DNA of 64,000 nucleotides from Streptomyces lydicus. Lineage in GTDB: Bacteria; Actinomycetota; Actinomycetes; Streptomycetales; Streptomycetaceae. Both the position numbers and the translations under genes were made by a program. The notes beneath the pieces are model-generated. The model was given only the letters and a program-made list of their open reading frames with translations, was not told the origin of the DNA and ran no database searches. The stretch spans positions 124,001-188,000 of the forward strand of contig NZ_JNZA01000010.1 in NCBI RefSeq assembly GCF_000717345.1. The letters are read 5' to 3'. Position 1 is the first letter of the stretch. Each line of letters begins with the position of its first letter. This document shows positions 15,826 through 46,521 of the stretch, one piece after another.

Positions 15826-15854
15826 TTGACGGCGTACCGGCTGGTCGGTACGGT
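15826..15854 (+). promoter_or_regulatory. Sigma-70-type promoter with embedded palindrome for the MHS transporter
   Basis: TTGACG (15826-15831) and TACGGT (15849-15854) are exactly 17 bp apart, an excellent HrdB-type promoter. The spacer and -10 are occupied by GTACCGGCTGGTCGGTAC (15834-15851), a 6-6-6 palindrome placed where a bound repressor would block polymerase. It resembles the sites at 6824, 39658 and 45283. Confidence 0.6.
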
Positions 15855-19035: not shown

Positions 19036-19086
19036 AAGGCGTCGGTGGGACCCTCCGGCGCTGCTCACGCCCATGAGGGGACCGGG

Positions 19087-20238
19087 ATGGATCTGGAGCT
19101 CAGCGCGGAGCAGACCGCGGTACGCCGGCTCGCCAGGGACTTCGTCGACCGCGAGGTCGCGCCGCACGCCGCCGCCTGGGACCGCGCGGAGAAGGTCGAC
19201 CGCGCCGTCGTCAAGAAGCTCGCCGGCCTCGGCTTCCTCGGGCTCACCGTCCCCGAGGAGTACGGCGGTTCGGGCGGCGACCATCTCTCGTACGTGCTGG
19301 TGACCGAGGAGCTGGGCCGCGGCGACTCCTCGGTGCGGGGCATCGTCTCGGTCTCCTTGGGGCTGGTCGCCAAGACGATCGCCACCTGGGGCGACGAGGA
19401 CCAGAAGCGCCACTGGCTGCCGCGGCTGACCTCCGGCGAGGCGCTCGGCTGCTTCGGCCTGACCGAGCCGGGCACCGGCTCCGACGCGGCAAGCCTCGCC
19501 ACCCGCGCGGTCCGCGACGGGGACGGGTTCGTCATCGACGGCGCCAAGATGTTCATCACCAACGGCACCTGGGCCGATGTCGTCCTGCTCTTCGCCCGCA
19601 CCGGCGACGCCCCGGGCCACCACGGCATCAGCGCCTTCCTCGTGCCCGCCGACAGCCCCGGCCTGGAGCGCCGGGAGATCCACGGCAAGCTGGGGCTGCG
19701 CGGCCAGGCCACCGCCGAGCTGGTGTTCGACGGCGTACGGGTGCCGGCGTCCGCGATGCTCGGGCCGGAGGGCAAGGGCTTCTCGGTCGCGATGTCCGCG
19801 CTGGCCAAGGGCCGGATGTCGGTCGCCGCCGGCTGCGTGGGCATCGCCCGGGCCGCACTGGAGGCCGCGCTCGGCTACGCGGGCCAACGGGAGCAGTTCG
19901 GCGGCCCGCTCGCACGTCACCAGCTGGTGCAGGAGCTGCTCAGCGACATCGCGGTGGACGTCGACGCCGCACGGCTGCTGACCTGGCGGGTCGCCGATCT
20001 GATCGACCGCGGCGAGCCGTTCGCCACCGCCGCTTCGCAGGCCAAGCTGTTCGCCTCGGAGGCCGCGGTGCGCGCCGCCAACAACGCCCTGCAGGTCTTC
20101 GGCGGCTACGGCTACATCGACGAGTACCCGGTCGGCAAGCTGCTGCGGGACGCCCGCGTGATGACCCTCTACGAGGGCACCAGCCAGATCCAGAAGCTGC
20201 TCATCGGCCGGGCACTGACCGGGGTCTCCGCCTTCTGA
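19087..20238 (+). CDS. Acyl-CoA dehydrogenase
   Basis: A 383-residue flavoenzyme of standard length. It starts MDLELSAEQTAVRRLARDFV after GGGACCGGG. It has the FAD-binding GCFGLTEPGTGSDAASL and KMFITNGTWADV patterns, GRMSVAAGCVGIARAALEAAL, and the short-chain-type catalytic base Glu363 in LYEGTSQIQKLLIGR. These features place it with the short/medium-chain or branched-chain acyl-CoA dehydrogenases that need electron transfer flavoprotein. It is monocistronic, faces away from its likely TetR regulator, and is followed by a second TetR/MaoC module that also suits fatty-acyl metabolism. Confidence 0.92.
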   Translation: MDLELSAEQTAVRRLARDFVDREVAPHAAAWDRAEKVDRAVVKKLAGLGFLGLTVPEEYGGSGGDHLSYVLVTEELGRGDSSVRGIVSVSLGLVAKTIATWGDEDQKRHWLPRLTSGEALGCFGLTEPGTGSDAASLATRAVRDGDGFVIDGAKMFITNGTWADVVLLFARTGDAPGHHGISAFLVPADSPGLERREIHGKLGLRGQATAELVFDGVRVPASAMLGPEGKGFSVAMSALAKGRMSVAAGCVGIARAALEAALGYAGQREQFGGPLARHQLVQELLSDIAVDVDAARLLTWRVADLIDRGEPFATAASQAKLFASEAAVRAANNALQVFGGYGYIDEYPVGKLLRDARVMTLYEGTSQIQKLLIGRALTGVSAF

Positions 20239-39657: not shown

Positions 39658-39675
39658 ATACCGACTGGTTAGTCT
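39658..39675. promoter_or_regulatory. Operator-like site, left end of the acyl-CoA/kinase gene island
   Basis: ATACCGACTGGTTAGTCT starts identically to the reverse complement of the site at 45283-45300 (ATACCGACT-A-GT). It lies 39 bp before the GTG start of the SDR gene, in the divergent gap with namZ. Confidence 0.55.
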
Positions 39676-39713
39676 GCCCTCGGCCGATCCGAGCGACCGA
39701 GGGAGACCCAGCA

Positions 39714-40484
39714 GTGGAAGCCGTCAGGGACAAAGCCGTCGTCGTGACCGGGGCGGGCGGGGGGATCGGCGCCGCCCTGGCCCGCCGCTTCGCCGCCGAG
39801 GGCGCCCGGGTCGTGGTCAACGACCTGGACGAGGCCAAGGCCCGCAAGACCGCCGAGGAGATCGGGGCGCTCGCGGTGCCCGGCGACGCCTCGGCCGTCG
39901 TCCCGCTCGCCCGCGAGGCGCTCGGCGGCGCGGTCGACATCTTCTGCGCCAACGCCGGGGTCGGCACCGGCGGCGGCCCCGACGCACCGGACGACGACTG
40001 GGCGCTGGCCTGGGACGTCAACGTCATGGCCCATGTCCGGGCGGCGCGCGAGCTGGTGCCGGAGTGGCTGGCGCGCGGCAGCGGACGCTTCATCTCCACC
40101 GTCTCCGCCGCCGGGCTGCTCACCATGGTCGCCGCGGCCCCCTACAGCGTCACCAAGCACGGTGCGTACGCCTTCGCCGAGTGGCTCTCGCTGACCTACC
40201 GGCACCGCGGCATCGACGTGCACGCCATCTGCCCGCAGGGCGTACGCACCGACATGCTGGCCGCCACCGGGACCGCCGGGGACCTCGTGCTGACCCCCAC
40301 CGCCGTCGAGCCCGAGGACGTCGCCGAGGCGCTCTTCGCGGCCATGGCCGAGGGCCGCTTCCTGGTGCTGCCGCACCCCGAGGTCGCGGACTACTACACC
40401 GCGCGGGCCGCCGACCCCGACCGCTGGCTCGGCGGGATGAACCACCTCCAGCGGAAGCTGGAGGAGGCCGAGGGCCGCGCGTAG
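39714..40484 (+). CDS. SDR-family NAD(P)-dependent oxidoreductase
   Basis: A 256-residue classical short-chain dehydrogenase starting at GTG 39714 after GGGAGACC. The cofactor motif is VVVTGAGGGIGAALARRFAAEGA, with NDLDEAK suggesting NAD, then CANAGVGTGG. The catalytic residues are Ser in FISTVSAAGL, Tyr144 and Lys148 in YSVTK. The C-terminus carries the extension YYTARAADPDRWLGGMNHLQ seen in fatty-acid and steroid-type members. First gene of the plus-strand operon with an acyl-CoA ligase and TetR. It probably oxidises a hydroxyacyl intermediate. Confidence 0.9.
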   Translation: MEAVRDKAVVVTGAGGGIGAALARRFAAEGARVVVNDLDEAKARKTAEEIGALAVPGDASAVVPLAREALGGAVDIFCANAGVGTGGGPDAPDDDWALAWDVNVMAHVRAARELVPEWLARGSGRFISTVSAAGLLTMVAAAPYSVTKHGAYAFAEWLSLTYRHRGIDVHAICPQGVRTDMLAATGTAGDLVLTPTAVEPEDVAEALFAAMAEGRFLVLPHPEVADYYTARAADPDRWLGGMNHLQRKLEEAEGRA

Positions 40485-40497
40485 GGCCGCTCCGGAC

Positions 40498-40535
40498 GGG
40501 GTGGCGGCCCGGCCGGGCCCGGCGCGCGCCACCCC
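40498..40535 (+). terminator. Hairpin between the SDR and ligase genes
   Basis: GGGGTGGC and GCCACCCC form the outer stem with a GC-rich centre (GGCCCGGCCGGGCC). It lies 14 bp after the SDR stop and 64 bp before the ligase start. It may attenuate readthrough or protect the upstream message. Confidence 0.45.
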
Positions 40536-40598
40536 ACCGCACCTCAGGTGTTCCCCCGCAGGGATGATCTGGCGATCAGGAAGAAAGGGCCGCACCCG

Positions 40599-42260
40599 AT
40601 GACCTCCTACCAGGACAAGCCGTGGCTGGCGCAGCTCACCGAAGCCCAGCGCGCCCCCGTCCAGCCGCCCCCCTCGACACTGCACGCGTTCCGCGCGGCG
40701 GTCCGGGCCGTCCCCGACCGCACGGCGCTCGCCTACTTCGACGGCCGGCTGTCCTACGCCGAGACCGACGCGCTCTCCGACGGCGTCGCCGCCCACCTCG
40801 CCGCACGTGGATTCCGCCGCGGCGACCGGGCCGCGGTCATGCTGCAGAACACCCCGCACTTCGTGCTGGCCCTGCTCGGCGTCTGGAAGGCAGGCGGGGT
40901 GGTCGTCCCCGTCAACCCCATGTACAAGTCGGCCGAGATGCGGCACATCCTGGACGACGCCGAGGTCACCGCCGTCATCTGCGCCGACCGCACCTGGGAC
41001 GGCTTCCTGCGCGCCACCGCCGCCGGGGCGCCGTCCGTGCGGATCGCGCTCACCGCCTGCGAGCGGGAGCTGCAGACCCGCGACGACGCCCGGGTGCTGC
41101 GCGGCGAGCCGCTCGGCCCGCAGGAGGACGCCGACGACCTGCTCGCGGTGGCCCGCGGCGCGGGCCGGCTCCGTGCGGCGCCCGCCGATCCCGGGCTCAC
41201 CGCCGACGACGTCGCCCTGATCAGCTACACCTCCGGCACCTCCGGCACCCCCAAGGGCGCCACCAACACCCACGGCAACATCGCCTACAACGCCGAACGC
41301 CAGCGCACCGGCCTCGGCCTGCCCGAAGGCGCCACCTACTTCGCACTCGCCCCGCTCTTCCACATCACCGGCATGGTCTGCGAACTGGCCGCCTGCGTCG
41401 CCAACGCGGGCACCCTCGCGCTCGCCTACCGCTTCGAGGCCGGCGTCGTCCTGGACGCCTTCCTGGAGCACCGGCCCGCCTACACCGTCGGCCCCTCCAC
41501 CGCCTACATGGCGCTGATGGCCCACCCCGGCGTGACCCGCGACCACTTCGCGTCCTTCGTGACGATGTCCTCCGGCGGCGCGCCGCTGCCGCCCGTGCTG
41601 GTCGAGAAGTTCCGCGCCGGCTTCGGCCCGTACCTCCACAACGGCTACGGTCTGACCGAGTGCACCGCCCCCTGCGCCAGCGTCCCGCCCGGCAGGCAGG
41701 CGCCGGTCGACAAGGTCTCCGGGACGCTCGCGGTCGGCGTGCCCGGCCCCGACACCGTCGTCCGGATCCTCGGTGAGGACGGCCGGGAGCTGCCGTTCGG
41801 CGAACCGGGCGAGATCGCGGTGCGCGGCCCGCAGGTCGTCCCCGGCTACTGGCGCCGCCCCGACGCCACCGCCGAGGCCATCCCCGACGGTGAACTGCGC
41901 ACCGGCGACATCGGCTTCATGGACCCCGACGGCTGGCTCTACGTCGTCGACCGCAAGAAGGACATGATCAACGCCTCCGGCTTCAAGGTGTGGCCGCGCG
42001 AGGTCGAGGACGTGCTGTACAGCCACCCGGCGGTGCGCGAGGCGGCGGTCGTCGGCGTGCCCGACGCCTACCGCGGCGAGACCGTCAAGGCGTATGTCAG
42101 CCTGCGTCCCGGTGCCGCGCCGCAACCCGCCGAGCTGGCCGCGTACTGCAAGGAACGGCTCGCGGCGTACAAATATCCCCGTGAGGTGGAGATCCTGGCA
42201 GAGCTCCCGAAGACCACGAGTGGCAAGATCCTCCGACGGGAGCTGCGCCACCGCGCATGA
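40599..42260 (+). CDS. AMP-dependent acyl-CoA synthetase (ligase)
   Basis: A 553-residue adenylating enzyme activating a carboxylic acid to its CoA thioester. ATG 40599 (MTSYQDKPWLAQL) follows GAAAGGG. Core motifs: ISYTSGTSGTPKGATNTHGN (A3), LFHITGMVCELA, SSGGAPLPPVL, NGYGLTECTA (A5), TGDIGFMDPDGWLYVVDRKKDMINASGFKVWPREVE (A7-A8 region), and the catalytic Lys in PKTTSGKILRREL (A10). It is complete. It is close in layout to long/medium-chain acyl-CoA ligases. Its 3' end is followed directly by the TetR gene. Confidence 0.92.
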   Translation: MTSYQDKPWLAQLTEAQRAPVQPPPSTLHAFRAAVRAVPDRTALAYFDGRLSYAETDALSDGVAAHLAARGFRRGDRAAVMLQNTPHFVLALLGVWKAGGVVVPVNPMYKSAEMRHILDDAEVTAVICADRTWDGFLRATAAGAPSVRIALTACERELQTRDDARVLRGEPLGPQEDADDLLAVARGAGRLRAAPADPGLTADDVALISYTSGTSGTPKGATNTHGNIAYNAERQRTGLGLPEGATYFALAPLFHITGMVCELAACVANAGTLALAYRFEAGVVLDAFLEHRPAYTVGPSTAYMALMAHPGVTRDHFASFVTMSSGGAPLPPVLVEKFRAGFGPYLHNGYGLTECTAPCASVPPGRQAPVDKVSGTLAVGVPGPDTVVRILGEDGRELPFGEPGEIAVRGPQVVPGYWRRPDATAEAIPDGELRTGDIGFMDPDGWLYVVDRKKDMINASGFKVWPREVEDVLYSHPAVREAAVVGVPDAYRGETVKAYVSLRPGAAPQPAELAAYCKERLAAYKYPREVEILAELPKTTSGKILRRELRHRA

Positions 42261-42286
42261 GGTACGACGAAGGACAGGTGAGGGCG

Positions 42287-42892
42287 ATGGCCGGCACGAA
42301 GGACGGCAACGGCAACGGTGGCGCGAAGCCGGTGGCCCAGCGGCTGCTGGCCACCGCCACCAGACTCTTCGCGGAGCAGGGCTACGACCGCACCTCCGTC
42401 CAGGAGATCGTCGATGCCGCGGGGGTCACCAAGGGCGCCCTCTACCACTACTTCGGCTCCAAGGACGATCTGCTGCACGAGGTCTACGGCCGGGTCCTGC
42501 GCCTCCAGCAGGAGCGCCTGGACCACTTCGCGGGCGCCGACGCGCCCGTGGAGCAGCGGCTGCGGGACGCCGCCGCCGACGTGGTCGTCACCACCATCGA
42601 GAACCTCGACGACACCAAGATCTTCTTCCGTTCGATGCACCACCTCGGCCCGGAGAAGGACAAGCAGGTGCGCGCCGAGCGCCGGCGTTACCACGAGCGC
42701 TTCCGGGCGCTGATCGAGGAGGGCCAGCGCACCGGCGTGTTCGCCGACGACGTGCCCGCCGACCTCGTCGTGGACTACCACTTCGGCTCGGTGCACCACC
42801 TCGGCACGTGGTACCGCGAGGACGGTCCGCTCACCCCCCAGCAGGTCGCCGACCACCTGGCCGACCTGCTGCTGCGGGCCCTGCGCCCGTAA
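42287..42892 (+). CDS. TetR-family regulator of the acyl-CoA/kinase island
   Basis: A 201-residue regulator. ATG 42287 (MAGTKDGNGNGG) has GGTGAGG upstream; an earlier ATG at 42257 overlaps the ligase stop in ATGA but has no ribosome site. The helix-turn-helix is TSVQEIVDAAGVTKGALYHYFGSKDDLLHEVY (about residues 35-66), with a FadR/TetR_C_33-like ligand domain. It is the last gene of the plus-strand operon and converges on the acyl-CoA dehydrogenase. The two palindromes at the outer ends of the island are its best candidate sites. Confidence 0.9.
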   Translation: MAGTKDGNGNGGAKPVAQRLLATATRLFAEQGYDRTSVQEIVDAAGVTKGALYHYFGSKDDLLHEVYGRVLRLQQERLDHFAGADAPVEQRLRDAAADVVVTTIENLDDTKIFFRSMHHLGPEKDKQVRAERRRYHERFRALIEEGQRTGVFADDVPADLVVDYHFGSVHHLGTWYREDGPLTPQQVADHLADLLLRALRP

Positions 42893-42909
42893 CGCCGGCA
42901 CCCGCGCAC

Positions 42910-42942
42910 GGGCCCCGCGACCGCCTGCCGGTCGCGGGGCCC
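42910..42942. terminator. Bidirectional terminator between converging operons
   Basis: GGGCCCCGCGACCG and CGGTCGCGGGGCCC form a perfect 14-bp stem with a CCTGC loop, midway between the TetR stop (42892) and the acyl-CoA dehydrogenase stop (42955). Confidence 0.9.
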
Positions 42943-42954
42943 GCCGCTCTTCGG

Positions 42955-44169
42955 CTACCGGTACTGCTTGAGCTCACGACGCGCCAGCGACCGCTGGTGC
43001 ACCTCGTCGGGGCCGTCCGCCAGCCGCAGGGTCCGCGCGCCCGCCCACAGTTCGGCCAGCGGGAAGTCCTGGCTGACACCGCCCGCGCCGTGCAGCTGCA
43101 CCGCCTTGTCGAGGATGTCCACGACGGTGCGCGGGGTGGCGATCTTGATGGCCTGGATCTCGGTGTGCGCGCCCTTGTTGCCGACGGTGTCCATCAGCCA
43201 GGCCGTCTTCAGCACCAGCAGCCGCAGCTGCTCCACCGCCACCCGGGCGTCCGCGATCCACGCCTGGACCACGCCCTGCTGGGCCAGCGGCTTGCCGAAG
43301 GCGGTACGGCCCACCGCCCGGCGGCACATCAGCTCGATGGCCCGCTCGGCCATGCCGATCAGCCGCATGCAGTGGTGGATCCGGCCGGGGCCGAGCCGGG
43401 CCTGGGCGATGCCGAAGCCGCCGCCCTCCTCGCCGATCAGATTGCTCGCCGGCACCCGCACGTCGTGGAAGACCACCTCGGCGTGGCCGCCGTGCCAGTG
43501 GTCCTCGTAGCCGTAGACCTGCATGGCGCGCCGCACCTCCAGGCCGGGGGTGTCGCGCGGCACCAGGATCATCGACTGCTGGCGGCGGATGTCCGCGCCG
43601 TCCGGGTCGGTCTTGCCCATCACGATGAAGATCCGGCACAGCGGGTTCATCGCCCCGGAGATGTACCACTTGCGGCCGTTGATGACATATTCGTCGCCGT
43701 CCCGCTCGATCCGGGTCTCGATGTTGGTGGCGTCCGACGAGGCCACCTCCGGCTCGGTCATCGCGAACGCCGACCGGATCTCACCGGCCAGCAGCGGCTC
43801 CAGCCACTGCTTCTGCTGCGCCTCGTCGCCGAACTGCGCCAGCACCTCCATGTTGCCGGTGTCCGGCGCCGCGCAGTTCAGCGCGGTGGGCGCCAACTGA
43901 GGGCTGCGGCCGGTGATTTCGGCCAGCGGCGCGTACTGGAGGTTCGTCAGCCCGGCACCGTGCTCCCGGTCCGGGAGGAAGAGGTTCCACAGCCCCTGCT
44001 TCCGGGCCTCGGCCTTCAGCTCCTCGACGATCGCCGGGGTGTCCCACGGCGAGGCGAGGCCGGCCCGCTGCTCACGGGCGGTCTCCTCGGCCGGGTGCAC
44101 ATGCTCGTCCATGAAGGTCAGGAGCCTCTCGCGGAGCTCCTGCGTACGGGCGTCGAATGCGAAGTCCAT
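42955..44169 (-). CDS. ACAD10/ACAD11-type acyl-CoA dehydrogenase
   Basis: A 404-residue acyl-CoA dehydrogenase of the group with FAFDARTQELRERLLTFMDEHVHPAEE at the N-terminus, FAMTEPEVASSDATNIET for FAD/substrate binding, WYISGAMNPLCRIFIVMGKTDP, GYEDHWHGGHAEVVFHDVRVP, LGPGRIHHCMRLIGMAERA, and LADGPDEVHQRSLARRELKQY at the end. This set is typical of the ACAD10/ACAD11 and LvaC-like branch, not of ordinary beta-oxidation enzymes. It starts 5 bp after the stop of the APH-type kinase gene. In the known systems the pair removes a 4- or 3-phosphate to give an enoyl-CoA. Confidence 0.88.
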   Translation of the reverse strand: MDFAFDARTQELRERLLTFMDEHVHPAEETAREQRAGLASPWDTPAIVEELKAEARKQGLWNLFLPDREHGAGLTNLQYAPLAEITGRSPQLAPTALNCAAPDTGNMEVLAQFGDEAQQKQWLEPLLAGEIRSAFAMTEPEVASSDATNIETRIERDGDEYVINGRKWYISGAMNPLCRIFIVMGKTDPDGADIRRQQSMILVPRDTPGLEVRRAMQVYGYEDHWHGGHAEVVFHDVRVPASNLIGEEGGGFGIAQARLGPGRIHHCMRLIGMAERAIELMCRRAVGRTAFGKPLAQQGVVQAWIADARVAVEQLRLLVLKTAWLMDTVGNKGAHTEIQAIKIATPRTVVDILDKAVQLHGAGGVSQDFPLAELWAGARTLRLADGPDEVHQRSLARRELKQYR

Positions 44170-44174
44170 GGGCC

Positions 44175-45227
44175 TCAGCCTTCCTTGAGGGTGGTCAGTC
44201 CGTGGTCGATGAAGACGGGGACGAGTTCGCCGATCCGGTCGAACCCGGCGCCGACGGTCTGGCCGAGCGTGAAGCGGTAGTGGATGCCCTCCAGGATCAC
44301 GGCGAGCTTGAACCAGGCGAAGGCGGTGTACCAGGCGATCGACGAGGTGTCGCGGCCCGAGCGGGCGGCGTAGCGCTCGATCAGCTCGCCGGGGGAGGGG
44401 TGGCCGGGGGCGCCACTGGTGGTGCTGACCGGGGACTCGGGCAGGCCCAGGTCCGAGCTGTACATCACCAGCAGCCCGAGGTCGGTCAGCGGATCACCGA
44501 GCGTGGACATCTCCCAGTCCAGCACGGCCTTGATGGTGTCGTCGGCGCCGACCAGGACGTTGTCCAGGCGGAAGTCGCCGTGCACGACGGTGGGCGCGGG
44601 GGAGGCGGGCAGCGCCCGGCCCAGCGTCTCGTGCAGCTCATCGATGCCCGCCAGTTCGCGGTTCCTGGACGCAGCCAGCTGCTTGCCCCAGCGCCGCAGC
44701 TGGCGCTCCAGGAAGCCGTCCGGGCGGCCGAAGTCGCCGAGCCCGACCGCCTCGGGGTCCACGGCGTGCAGCTCCACCAGCGTGTCGACCAGGGAGAGGA
44801 CCACGGCGCGGGTGCGCTCCGGGCCGAGCGTGGCCAGCTGCCCGGCCGTGCGGTACGGGGTGCCCTCGACCAGCTCCATCACATAGAAGGGCGAGCCGGT
44901 CACCGACTCGTCCTCGCACAGCAGCAGCGCCTCGGGCACCGGCACCGGGGTGTCGTGCAGCGCGCTGATCACCCGGTGCTCGCGCCGCATGTCGTGCGCG
45001 GTGGCCAGCACGTGGCCGAGCGGCGGGCGGCGTACGACCCAGGAGCCGGTGCCGTCGGTGACCCGGTAGGTGAGGTTGGAGCGCCCGCCCTCGATCAGCT
45101 GCGCGCGCAGCGGGCCGCCGGCCAGCCCCGGCCGCACGCGGTCCAGGTGCTCGCGCAATCGTGTCAGGTCGAGACCGGGTGGATCCTCCCGGTCCGGGGC
45201 CTGAGGGGGAGGGGTGCCCTTGCTCAT
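44175..45227 (-). CDS. APH-type phosphotransferase (ACAD10/11 or LvaA kinase-like)
   Basis: A 350-residue kinase-fold protein. ATG 45227 (MSKGTPPPQAPDRED) was chosen for GGAGGAG upstream. It has GGRSNLTYRVTDGTGSWVVRRPP (nucleotide loop and Lys/Arg), VMELVEGTPYR hinge, the catalytic VVHGDFRLDNVLVG and metal-binding VLDWEMSTLGDPLTDLG. This is the sequence signature of the APH domain found fused to mammalian ACAD10/11 and of bacterial LvaA-type hydroxyacyl-CoA kinases, not of antibiotic-modifying enzymes. It is first in a two-gene unit with the dehydrogenase and has a palindrome 56 bp upstream. Confidence 0.88.
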   Translation of the reverse strand: MSKGTPPPQAPDREDPPGLDLTRLREHLDRVRPGLAGGPLRAQLIEGGRSNLTYRVTDGTGSWVVRRPPLGHVLATAHDMRREHRVISALHDTPVPVPEALLLCEDESVTGSPFYVMELVEGTPYRTAGQLATLGPERTRAVVLSLVDTLVELHAVDPEAVGLGDFGRPDGFLERQLRRWGKQLAASRNRELAGIDELHETLGRALPASPAPTVVHGDFRLDNVLVGADDTIKAVLDWEMSTLGDPLTDLGLLVMYSSDLGLPESPVSTTSGAPGHPSPGELIERYAARSGRDTSSIAWYTAFAWFKLAVILEGIHYRFTLGQTVGAGFDRIGELVPVFIDHGLTTLKEG

Positions 45228-45282
45228 CGTGCTCCTCCGTACGGGGGTGGACGGTCCGTCGTGGTCGGTCGCTGCCCCGATC

Positions 45283-45300
45283 ATGCCGACTAGTCGGTAT
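45283..45300. promoter_or_regulatory. Operator-like site, right end of the acyl-CoA/kinase gene island
   Basis: ATGCCGACTAGTCGGTAT contains the perfect core CCGACTAGTCGG. It lies 56 bp upstream of the kinase start. It is the most symmetric of the four related sites. Confidence 0.65.
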
Positions 45301-45417: not shown

Positions 45418-46347
45418 CTAGGCGTGGCAGGCCATCGGCACCCCGCCGTTCATCGCCGTCATGTCGCCGAAGCCCGCCAGCGGGTCGAGCGGCGCGCCCG
45501 GTTCCCGGCCGTCCAGCTCCGCGTACGCCCGGTGCAGGTTCGCCACCAGCCGCTCGCTCTCGGCCAGCTCCGCGAACGCGCCGAGATCCGCCTCCCGGGC
45601 CACCTCCAGCGGCGTCCGGCCGGCCGCCCGGCCCTCCTGCGCCAGCCGGCCGACGAACTCCAGATAGCGCTCGATGCCGTCGTACACCTCCGGGCCGGTC
45701 ACCGGCCCGTGCCCCGGGACGACGGTCGTCGCGTCCAGCGAACGCAGCAGCCGCAGCGCCCGCAGCGACCCGGAGACCGACCCCATGAAGACGAACGGCG
45801 TCCCGCCGTGGAAGACCAGGTCGCCGGTGAACACCACGCGCCGCTCGGGCAGCCACACGATGGTGTCCCCGGTCGTGTGTGCCACGCCCGGGTGGATCAG
45901 CCGCACCTCGATGTCCCCGACGTGCAGCGTGAGTTCGCGGTCGTAGGTGACGGTCGGCGGGGTCAGCCGGATGTCGCCGTACTCCACCTCGGGCCACACC
46001 GCGTGCAGCTGGTGCCCGGCGTCCAGCAGTTCCCGTCGGCAGGCGGTGTGCCCGATGACCGTGGCTTCCGGCGCGAAGACGCCGTTGCCGTAGGTGTGGT
46101 CGCCGTGGTGGTGGGTGTTGACCACCGTACGGGGTACCGGCGCGCCGCTCTCCGCGATCCGGCGGCGCAGCAGCCGCGCCCGGCGCTCGGTGGCGGCGGT
46201 GTCCACCACGAGGGTGGCGTCCCCGTCGGTGACGAAACCGGCGTTGTTCAGGCACCAGCCGCCGTCCGGCTGGATGAACGCATGGACGCCGGCGGCGAGT
46301 TCGGTCAGATACGGCTCGTCCACGGCCGGTGCGGTCGGGTCGCCCAT
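45418..46347 (-). CDS. Metallo-beta-lactamase-fold hydrolase
   Basis: A 309-residue protein starting MGDPTAPAVDEPYLTEL. The metal motif is complete: NTHHHGDHTYGN, IHPGVAHTTGDTIVWLP, FTGDLVFHGGTPF and VVPGHGPV. The family includes lactonases, thioesterases and flavin-free quinolone- or cyclase-like enzymes. The two-residue spacing of the metal ligands suggests a binuclear zinc or iron site. It lies 190 bp downstream of the kinase gene on the same strand direction but with its own start region. I cannot name a substrate. Confidence 0.88.
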   Translation of the reverse strand: MGDPTAPAVDEPYLTELAAGVHAFIQPDGGWCLNNAGFVTDGDATLVVDTAATERRARLLRRRIAESGAPVPRTVVNTHHHGDHTYGNGVFAPEATVIGHTACRRELLDAGHQLHAVWPEVEYGDIRLTPPTVTYDRELTLHVGDIEVRLIHPGVAHTTGDTIVWLPERRVVFTGDLVFHGGTPFVFMGSVSGSLRALRLLRSLDATTVVPGHGPVTGPEVYDGIERYLEFVGRLAQEGRAAGRTPLEVAREADLGAFAELAESERLVANLHRAYAELDGREPGAPLDPLAGFGDMTAMNGGVPMACHA

Positions 46348-46521
46348 GCGGTGTGGTCCCCTTCGGTGATGGCACGTCACGGCCCGCCGGGGGGCCGGTC
46401 CTTGGTCGCTTCCCCTCGTCACAGGGGTCGCGTCACGGTACCGCCGCCGGGCGCCGGGCCGGCCGCCGGGCCCGCCGCCGGCGCCCGTACGAACCACGGT
46501 CGGTGCCCGTACGCGCCGCGC

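Follow-up and report, generated by a model that had tools for sequence, protein, structure and literature searches.

The closest described relatives of the locus reported here pair a kinase with a member of the acyl-coenzyme A (acyl-CoA) dehydrogenase (ACAD) family. The lva system of Pseudomonas putida (LvaEDABC) includes LvaD, a reductase of the short-chain dehydrogenase/reductase (SDR) type. In the same locus are a ligase, a kinase, and an ACAD-family elimination enzyme (excerpts of PMC12440821 and PMC11342911). In Burkholderia, orthologs of LvaA and LvaC form a proven stand-alone pair that replaces the domains of mammalian ACAD10 in vitro (excerpts of PMC11342911); LvaA is entered in UniProt as Q88G01. 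On the regulatory side, PfmR, a TetR-family regulator of fatty-acid genes in Thermus thermophilus, binds TACCGACCGGTYGG sites (excerpts of PMC7022988). Here, we describe a five-gene locus at positions 39658 to 45300 of a 64,000-nucleotide stretch of the Streptomyces lydicus genome (contig NZ_JNZA01000010.1, positions 124,001 to 188,000), which we refer to as the window. Specifically, two convergent operons encode an SDR, an acyl-CoA ligase, and a TetR-family regulator on the plus strand and an ACAD and an APH-type kinase on the minus strand, an arrangement whose coordinates we confirmed from the initial annotation of this DNA. The locus probably serves the breakdown of a hydroxylated carboxylic acid under TetR control; the likeliest substrate is a 4-hydroxy (or 4-keto) acid or its gamma-lactone, and the route would run through the kinase and the ACAD. 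This reading draws on the gene identities, the active-site residues, the conserved synteny and operators, and the co-occurrence of the two genes.

With mammalian ACAD11 and ACAD10, by which 4-hydroxy fatty acids become degradable, the locus shares a homologous kinase and ACAD bearing the same catalytic and phosphate-binding residues, as far as excerpts of PMC12440821 and PMC11342911 describe them, and presumably also the sequence of phosphorylation followed by elimination. Unlike the mammalian enzymes, the Streptomyces kinase and ACAD are two separate proteins, the HAD domain of ACAD10 has no counterpart among the five genes, and the locus adds a dedicated ligase, SDR, and TetR regulator. The likeness to lva is one of gene types alone; the Streptomyces locus has no LvaB, includes a TetR gene, and is laid out as two convergent operons. 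It resembles the Burkholderia pair, by description, in having a stand-alone bacterial kinase and ACAD, although the former is proteobacterial and the Streptomyces pair actinobacterial. Because bacterial orthologs have already been proven enzymatically, the Streptomyces locus joins, with good support from sequence, a known pathway. Its novelty is that of a genus-wide, operator-linked Streptomyces locus, and we found no paper on a Streptomyces ACAD11-like locus in an open-licence collection of the literature.

The dehydrogenase and its active site

On sequence grounds, the ACAD (42955..44169, minus strand; 404 amino acids) belongs to the ACAD10/11-LvaC family, as it resembles ACAD10/11 more than it does ordinary ACADs. 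Among PDB entries, its top match is mouse ACAD11 (470 bits; 56% identity over 395 aligned positions), followed by the ACAD11 entry 2wbi and the stand-alone 4hr3 (447 bits), whereas the best ordinary ACAD reaches 149 bits. For the mouse enzyme, mutagenesis and modelling point to R626, R631, HCMR 634-637, and D753 as a residue set; nonconservative substitution of R626, H634, or R637 abolishes the ACAD step, D753 is named as catalytic, and R631 is common to ACADs (excerpts of PMC12440821). The Streptomyces enzyme contains the complete ACAD10/11 active-site set (R258, R263, H266-C-M-R269, and D385), of which the R631 equivalent is general to ACADs whereas the remaining positions are not. The completeness of this set lends support to the initial annotation, which had read the locus as an actinobacterial kinase/dehydrogenase pathway for a hydroxy fatty acid.

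The set is also well conserved among relatives. An ACAD match was found in 101 of 103 Streptomyces loci, and all seven positions were kept in 99 of them, the other two being a fragment (L167) and an alignment gap (L175). Likewise, the seven positions were exact in 14 of 17 other loci with an ACAD match (L094, L102, and L106 deviate at the H or C), in 13 of the 14 ACADs matched among 16 plasmid loci, and in 37 of 39 ACADs from a sample of the phylum.

These residues bear on the argument that the locus is one of ordinary beta-oxidation, with a plain ACAD and an APH-like protein that acts on something unrelated. An SDR, a ligase, a TetR regulator, and an ACAD are standard fatty-acid genes, and operators of the PfmR-like kind described below control such genes. 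Yet none of the nine other S. lydicus ACADs that we scanned, out of 25 further matches, had the full set, and six of the nine carry Glu in place of Asp385. Together with the co-occurrence of kinase and ACAD, this makes an ordinary beta-oxidation locus very unlikely. Of these nine, the one nearest to the set (R, R, R, C, L, R, D) is L002 (L110:4517-6181, plus strand), with Asp at the base, Arg in the positions equivalent to 626 and 637, and Arg replacing His634; it adjoins a divergent open reading frame (ORF) that by eye resembles a CaiB-type CoA-transferase.

The kinase and its association with the dehydrogenase

The product of the APH-type kinase gene (44175..45227, minus strand; 350 amino acids) is predicted from PDB ranking, residues, and a tree to be a 4-hydroxyacyl-CoA kinase. 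Its PDB matches begin with 9o56 (228 bits), 3dxp (179), and ACAD11 (162), and then fall to 9fsg (45), 3ats (33), and the macrolide kinase MphH (23). The catalytic loop reads HGDFRLDN (residues 216-223, with Asp218 and Asn223), the ACAD11 equivalent being HGDFKLDN. In addition, the CoA-contacting arginines of ACAD11 align with Arg175 and with an Arg beside the helix-C Glu. For this comparison, the printed ACAD11 PDB chain numbering is the paper's minus one at R176, D220, and N225, and R86 was assumed to be the Arg beside the helix-C Glu, three below the paper's numbering.

An argument could be made that the protein modifies antibiotics (aminoglycosides or macrolides) and neighbors catabolic genes by chance. 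Its Pfam family is APH (PF01636), the best NCBIfam model is APH(3'), and 9o56 was deposited as an "aminoglycoside phosphotransferase". We regard this as extremely improbable, given that the APH(3') score is 37 bits against a cut-off of 205, that the macrolide kinase scores far below ACAD11, and that synteny and operator are conserved across the genus. Moreover, 9o56 has as its nearest kin in our tree a kinase from Cytobacillus whose gene lies near one for an ACAD10/11-type ACAD.

Among the best 120 of 7998 matches, the closest homologs of the kinase are from Streptomyces (93-94% identity). We built a tree of 39 rows, in which the S. lydicus APH paralogs came from three of ten fetched regions and choline kinases and classical drug kinases were left out. 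The window kinase groups with the Streptomyces rows (99/99). These lie inside a group of ten actinobacterial kinases (95/89), itself part of a broader group of 16 with lower support (87/67). ACAD11, 3dxp, and the Azoarcus and Sphingobium kinases form one group (100/99), and three S. lydicus APH paralogs on long branches are set apart, by a split of 87/89, from the side that holds the window kinase, ACAD11, and 3dxp. The initial annotation had held that a kinase grouping with those for choline or aminoglycosides rather than with ACAD10/11 would speak against its reading. Within this set of rows and models, no such grouping was seen: by score the kinase is far from the curated drug-kinase models and MphH, and in the tree it stands apart from the three S. 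lydicus paralogs.

Kinase and ACAD also tend to be found in the same genomes. Across 119 actinobacterial genomes (ACAD at E <=1e-110, kinase at E <=1e-30), the ACAD was detected in 42 and the kinase in 51; 41 of the 42 ACAD-positive genomes had the kinase (the exception is G112), compared to 10 of the 77 ACAD-negative ones (Fisher p 3e-21, without correction for shared ancestry). Furthermore, the kinase lies near the ACAD in 15 of 17 loci of a set of relatives and in 13 of 14 ACAD-holding plasmid loci, six of which were chosen through their kinase match.

Phosphatase genes were observed beside some of the related loci. Of 75 loci scanned, 73 hold an ACAD, and in 9 of these a HAD phosphatase is encoded nearby; those of L098, L103, L213, and L214 supplied the queries, and those of L097, L099, L101, L238, and L253 are tblastn matches. 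For the four that were scanned, the best NCBIfam model was TIGR02247 (epoxide-hydrolase-N-terminal-like), below its cut-off. A HAD domain is one of the three parts of ACAD10, which may thus be encoded by individual genes in bacteria. A histidine phosphatase gene adjoins the kinase in another 5 of the 73 (L108, L218, L222, L224, and L226; four supplied queries), from Proteobacteria, Deinococcus, and one actinobacterium, and its product might reset trapped phosphoacyl-CoA. A fused ACAD-kinase suggested for L108 by a stop-to-stop scan was rejected, as the two genes are listed as distinct ORFs that do not share a frame.

Gene order and operators across Streptomyces

On the plus strand, the first gene encodes an SDR-family dehydrogenase of 256 amino acids (39714..40484, GTG start; PF00106, E 3.6e-36), whose best PDB match is the (3R)-hydroxyacyl-CoA dehydrogenase 2et6 (97 bits). 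It is followed by a FadD-like acyl-CoA ligase of 553 amino acids (40599..42260; PF00501, E 7.7e-86, and PF13193), whose matches to NCBIfam models for long-chain-fatty-acid--CoA ligase fall short of the model cut-offs. The TetR-family gene (PF00440 and PF17932) ends at 42892 and starts either at 42287 or at 42257, in the latter case overlapping the stop codon of the ligase gene; its best PDB matches are 3dcf and then 3vpr, which we take to be PfmR. Within the operons, neighboring genes are separated by 114, at most 26, and 5 bases. The initial annotation had put the operons five bases apart, a spacing that belongs to the ACAD/kinase pair (44170-44174), whereas the operons are separated by 62 bases (42893-42954). 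It had also placed a shared terminator between them. A GC-rich hairpin of 15 perfect pairs is indeed present there (42909..42943), with folding z scores of -4.1 and -5.2 on the two strands and none of 200 shuffles equally stable on either; it has no U-run, and our terminator scan gave no entry for it. It is probably a bidirectional terminator of the kind without a U-run.

The arrangement is widespread in the genus. The ACAD was present in 36 of 37 Streptomyces genomes searched, S. lydicus included. In a set of 80 related loci, all five genes were found in the same order and on the same strands in 55. Of these loci, 71 extend 5.5 kb or more past the kinase; 53 of the 71 had all five genes, and one had no ACAD at threshold. 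All five were likewise found in 17 of 23 further Streptomyces loci. The ACAD-TetR gap ranges from 40 to 2720 bases in the 80-locus set and exceeds 1.1 kb in 29 of the 71 long loci; because it varies, the central junction evidently tolerates insertions. In the further Streptomyces loci, the gap genes that we read (peptidase-like, MarR/GNAT-like, LysR-like, sensor-kinase-like, and others) seem by eye to be unrelated. Some Streptomyces (L100 and L103) have a second locus with genes of the SDR (46-48%), ligase (62% in L100), ACAD, and kinase types plus an enoyl-CoA hydratase, and that of L100 has a thioesterase as well.

Putative TetR-type operators lie at both outer ends, 5' of the SDR gene (39658..39675, plus strand; ATACCGACTGGTTAGTCT) and 5' of the kinase gene (45283..45300, minus strand; ATACCGACTAGTCGGCAT). 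The initial annotation described them as matching 18-bp palindromes. They do share a half-site, with 13 of 18 bases in agreement, chiefly in ATACCGACT, but the right site alone is a near-perfect palindrome (8 of 9 symmetric pairs, versus 5 of 9 on the left). Within the window, a loose version of the pattern (at most two mismatches) was not rarer than chance, with 13 matches against 13.8 expected. The sites are therefore not established by the window sequence alone; it is their conservation in relatives that establishes them. The kinase-side operator was found in all 80 loci of the 80-locus set (14-17 of 18 bases), and the SDR-side operator in all 48 testable ones (13-15 of 18 against a symmetric consensus), that is, those with an SDR, as in 63 of the 80, and more than 150 bases around its start. 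As a control, among 400 random windows from the same loci, some of which may include true sites, four scored at least 14 and five at least 13. The right operator was also present in all 23 further Streptomyces loci (15-18 of 18), and the left in 18 of them (16-18 of 18 against the window sequence); the misses were L073, L074, L075, and L087, where the sequence breaks off no later than the start of the SDR gene, and L091, where the SDR was not found. In L109, where neither SDR nor ligase is seen, a left-type site lies before the TetR gene.

Outside these sets, the operator-type site accompanies the TetR ortholog. Sites of 15 or more of 18 bases were found in all three loci with an ortholog (matched for most of its length at 60% identity or more) and in one of 69 without (L101). 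One plasmid copy (L212) has a site of 14 of 18 and a TetR match too short to count. The predicted operators at both operon promoters are of the TACCGACCGGTCGGTA type, as for PfmR-like TetR regulators. The PfmR sites are nearly equal to the Streptomyces operator, according to excerpts of PMC7022988, although the target genes differ. The inverted repeat of PaaR, a Burkholderia TetR regulator, closely resembles the motif too. Because PfmR and PaaR, both TetR regulators of CoA-dependent catabolism, share it, the motif type was already known. We predict that the Streptomyces TetR is an acyl-CoA-responsive repressor.

We rejected a regulon beyond the island, as genome-wide matches with at most two mismatches (99 and 99) equaled a reversed-pattern control (98 and 96). 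Exact operators occur at three places in the genome, the two described here and C32:20190, which on reading adjoins no plainly related gene. Elsewhere in the window (15836-15849 and 19045-20238), an operator-like ACCGGCTGGTCGGT lies upstream of an ORF resembling an MFS transporter, with ordinary ACAD and TetR-like ORFs within a few kb.

A proposed pathway and its alternatives

For an acid whose hydroxyl group blocks beta-oxidation, we propose a dedicated route through the kinase and the ACAD, inferring the substrate, the SDR role, and the inducer. The acyl-CoA would be made by the locus ligase; because some strains have no such gene, a general housekeeping ligase may substitute in them. In the lva pathway, LvaD reduces the 4-keto group. 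The Streptomyces SDR could possibly act as a 4-keto/4-hydroxy dehydrogenase, interconverting the two forms, or as a 3-hydroxyacyl-CoA dehydrogenase at a later step. The kinase would then phosphorylate the 4-hydroxyl of the acyl-CoA, its position at C4 being a deduction from homology. The predicted chemistry of the ACAD is elimination of phosphate from 4-phosphoacyl-CoA: with flavin adenine dinucleotide bound, Asp385 as the base, and Arg258, His266, and Arg269 gripping the phosphate, it would yield a 2-enoyl-CoA without need of an outside electron acceptor. Ordinary beta-oxidation would finish the breakdown. TetR, sitting on the two outer operators, would keep both operons repressed as long as it has bound no acyl-CoA, probably one formed in this pathway.

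Several observations weigh against this reading. The 80 loci are the best of at least 500 relatives and are close kin, 79 from Streptomyces and one from an "Actinobacteria bacterium". The SDR, ligase, and TetR genes are dispensable, since they are missing from some relatives' loci: of the 71 long loci, seven have no ligase, five no SDR, and five none of the three, leaving only kinase and ACAD. Similarly, the SDR and TetR genes of L074 and L081 have no ligase gene between them, SDR and ligase are both missing from L109, and L091 has only a partial ligase. Outside Streptomyces, the kinase is near the ACAD in just 6 of 39 phylum-sample loci, several of which end at contig ends. In the tree, the window kinase sits in an actinobacterial group beside, not within, that of ACAD11 and 3dxp, and the deeper splits are weak. 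Finally, the operons have no room for an LvaB-sized gene, which upholds, for this locus, the absence reported by the initial annotation. The concern raised there about a different partner requirement is weakened; LvaB does not appear in the ACAD10/11 and Burkholderia ortholog assays as excerpted from PMC12440821 and PMC11342911. Nor was a lactonase recognised among the genes scanned. A metallo-beta-lactamase-fold gene at 45418-46437, detected in 8 of the 23 further Streptomyces loci, was rejected as a candidate because it passes only the general Pfam Lactamase_B cut-off and fails the NCBIfam cut-offs shown.

The same kinase and elimination chemistry could instead serve a hydroxyl elsewhere on the chain or a branched, cyclic, or terpenoid-derived hydroxyacyl-CoA. 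This would fit with the separate tree group of actinobacterial kinases, with a ligase and an SDR that fall below all curated NCBIfam cut-offs among the models shown, and with the varied neighborhoods of relatives (MaoC and SDR; ketoacyl synthases and an AfsA-like gene; a P450), including hydroxymethylglutaryl-CoA lyase and enoyl-CoA hydratases near a relative that has only the kinase. We nevertheless consider it unlikely, as enzymes with proven activity on 4-phosphoacyl-CoAs have the same residues in the places of R258, H266, R269, and D385. This identity is also why phosphorylation followed by phosphate elimination is the most likely chemistry.

Alternatively, the locus could be a genus-wide route by which Streptomyces disposes of its own 4-hydroxy acids and gamma-lactones, whether these stem from lipid oxidation, by-products of polyketide synthesis, or signalling lactones, with TetR sensing the 4-hydroxyacyl-CoA itself. 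We find this version doubtful, and quite unlikely on balance. A linear plasmid of Streptomyces sp. NBC_00388 (L214) carries the kinase and ACAD near ketoacyl synthases and an AfsA-like gene, which recalls butyrolactone-type signalling, and in a Tsukamurella relative the pair has a phosphotriesterase-type gene and a gene for an alpha/beta hydrolase nearby. These neighbors are at most a hint of such disposal.

On our preferred reading, a TetR-controlled route for a hydroxylated carboxylic acid, the findings give a concrete role to genes labelled "phosphotransferase family protein" and "acyl-CoA dehydrogenase". The Streptomyces pair provides a simple, separated-enzyme model for ACAD10/11, and its TetR regulator is a candidate biosensor for hydroxyacyl-CoAs. 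More generally, our findings suggest that a pathway whose proof in mammals came only recently is a regulated and widely conserved function of a major soil-dwelling, antibiotic-producing genus.

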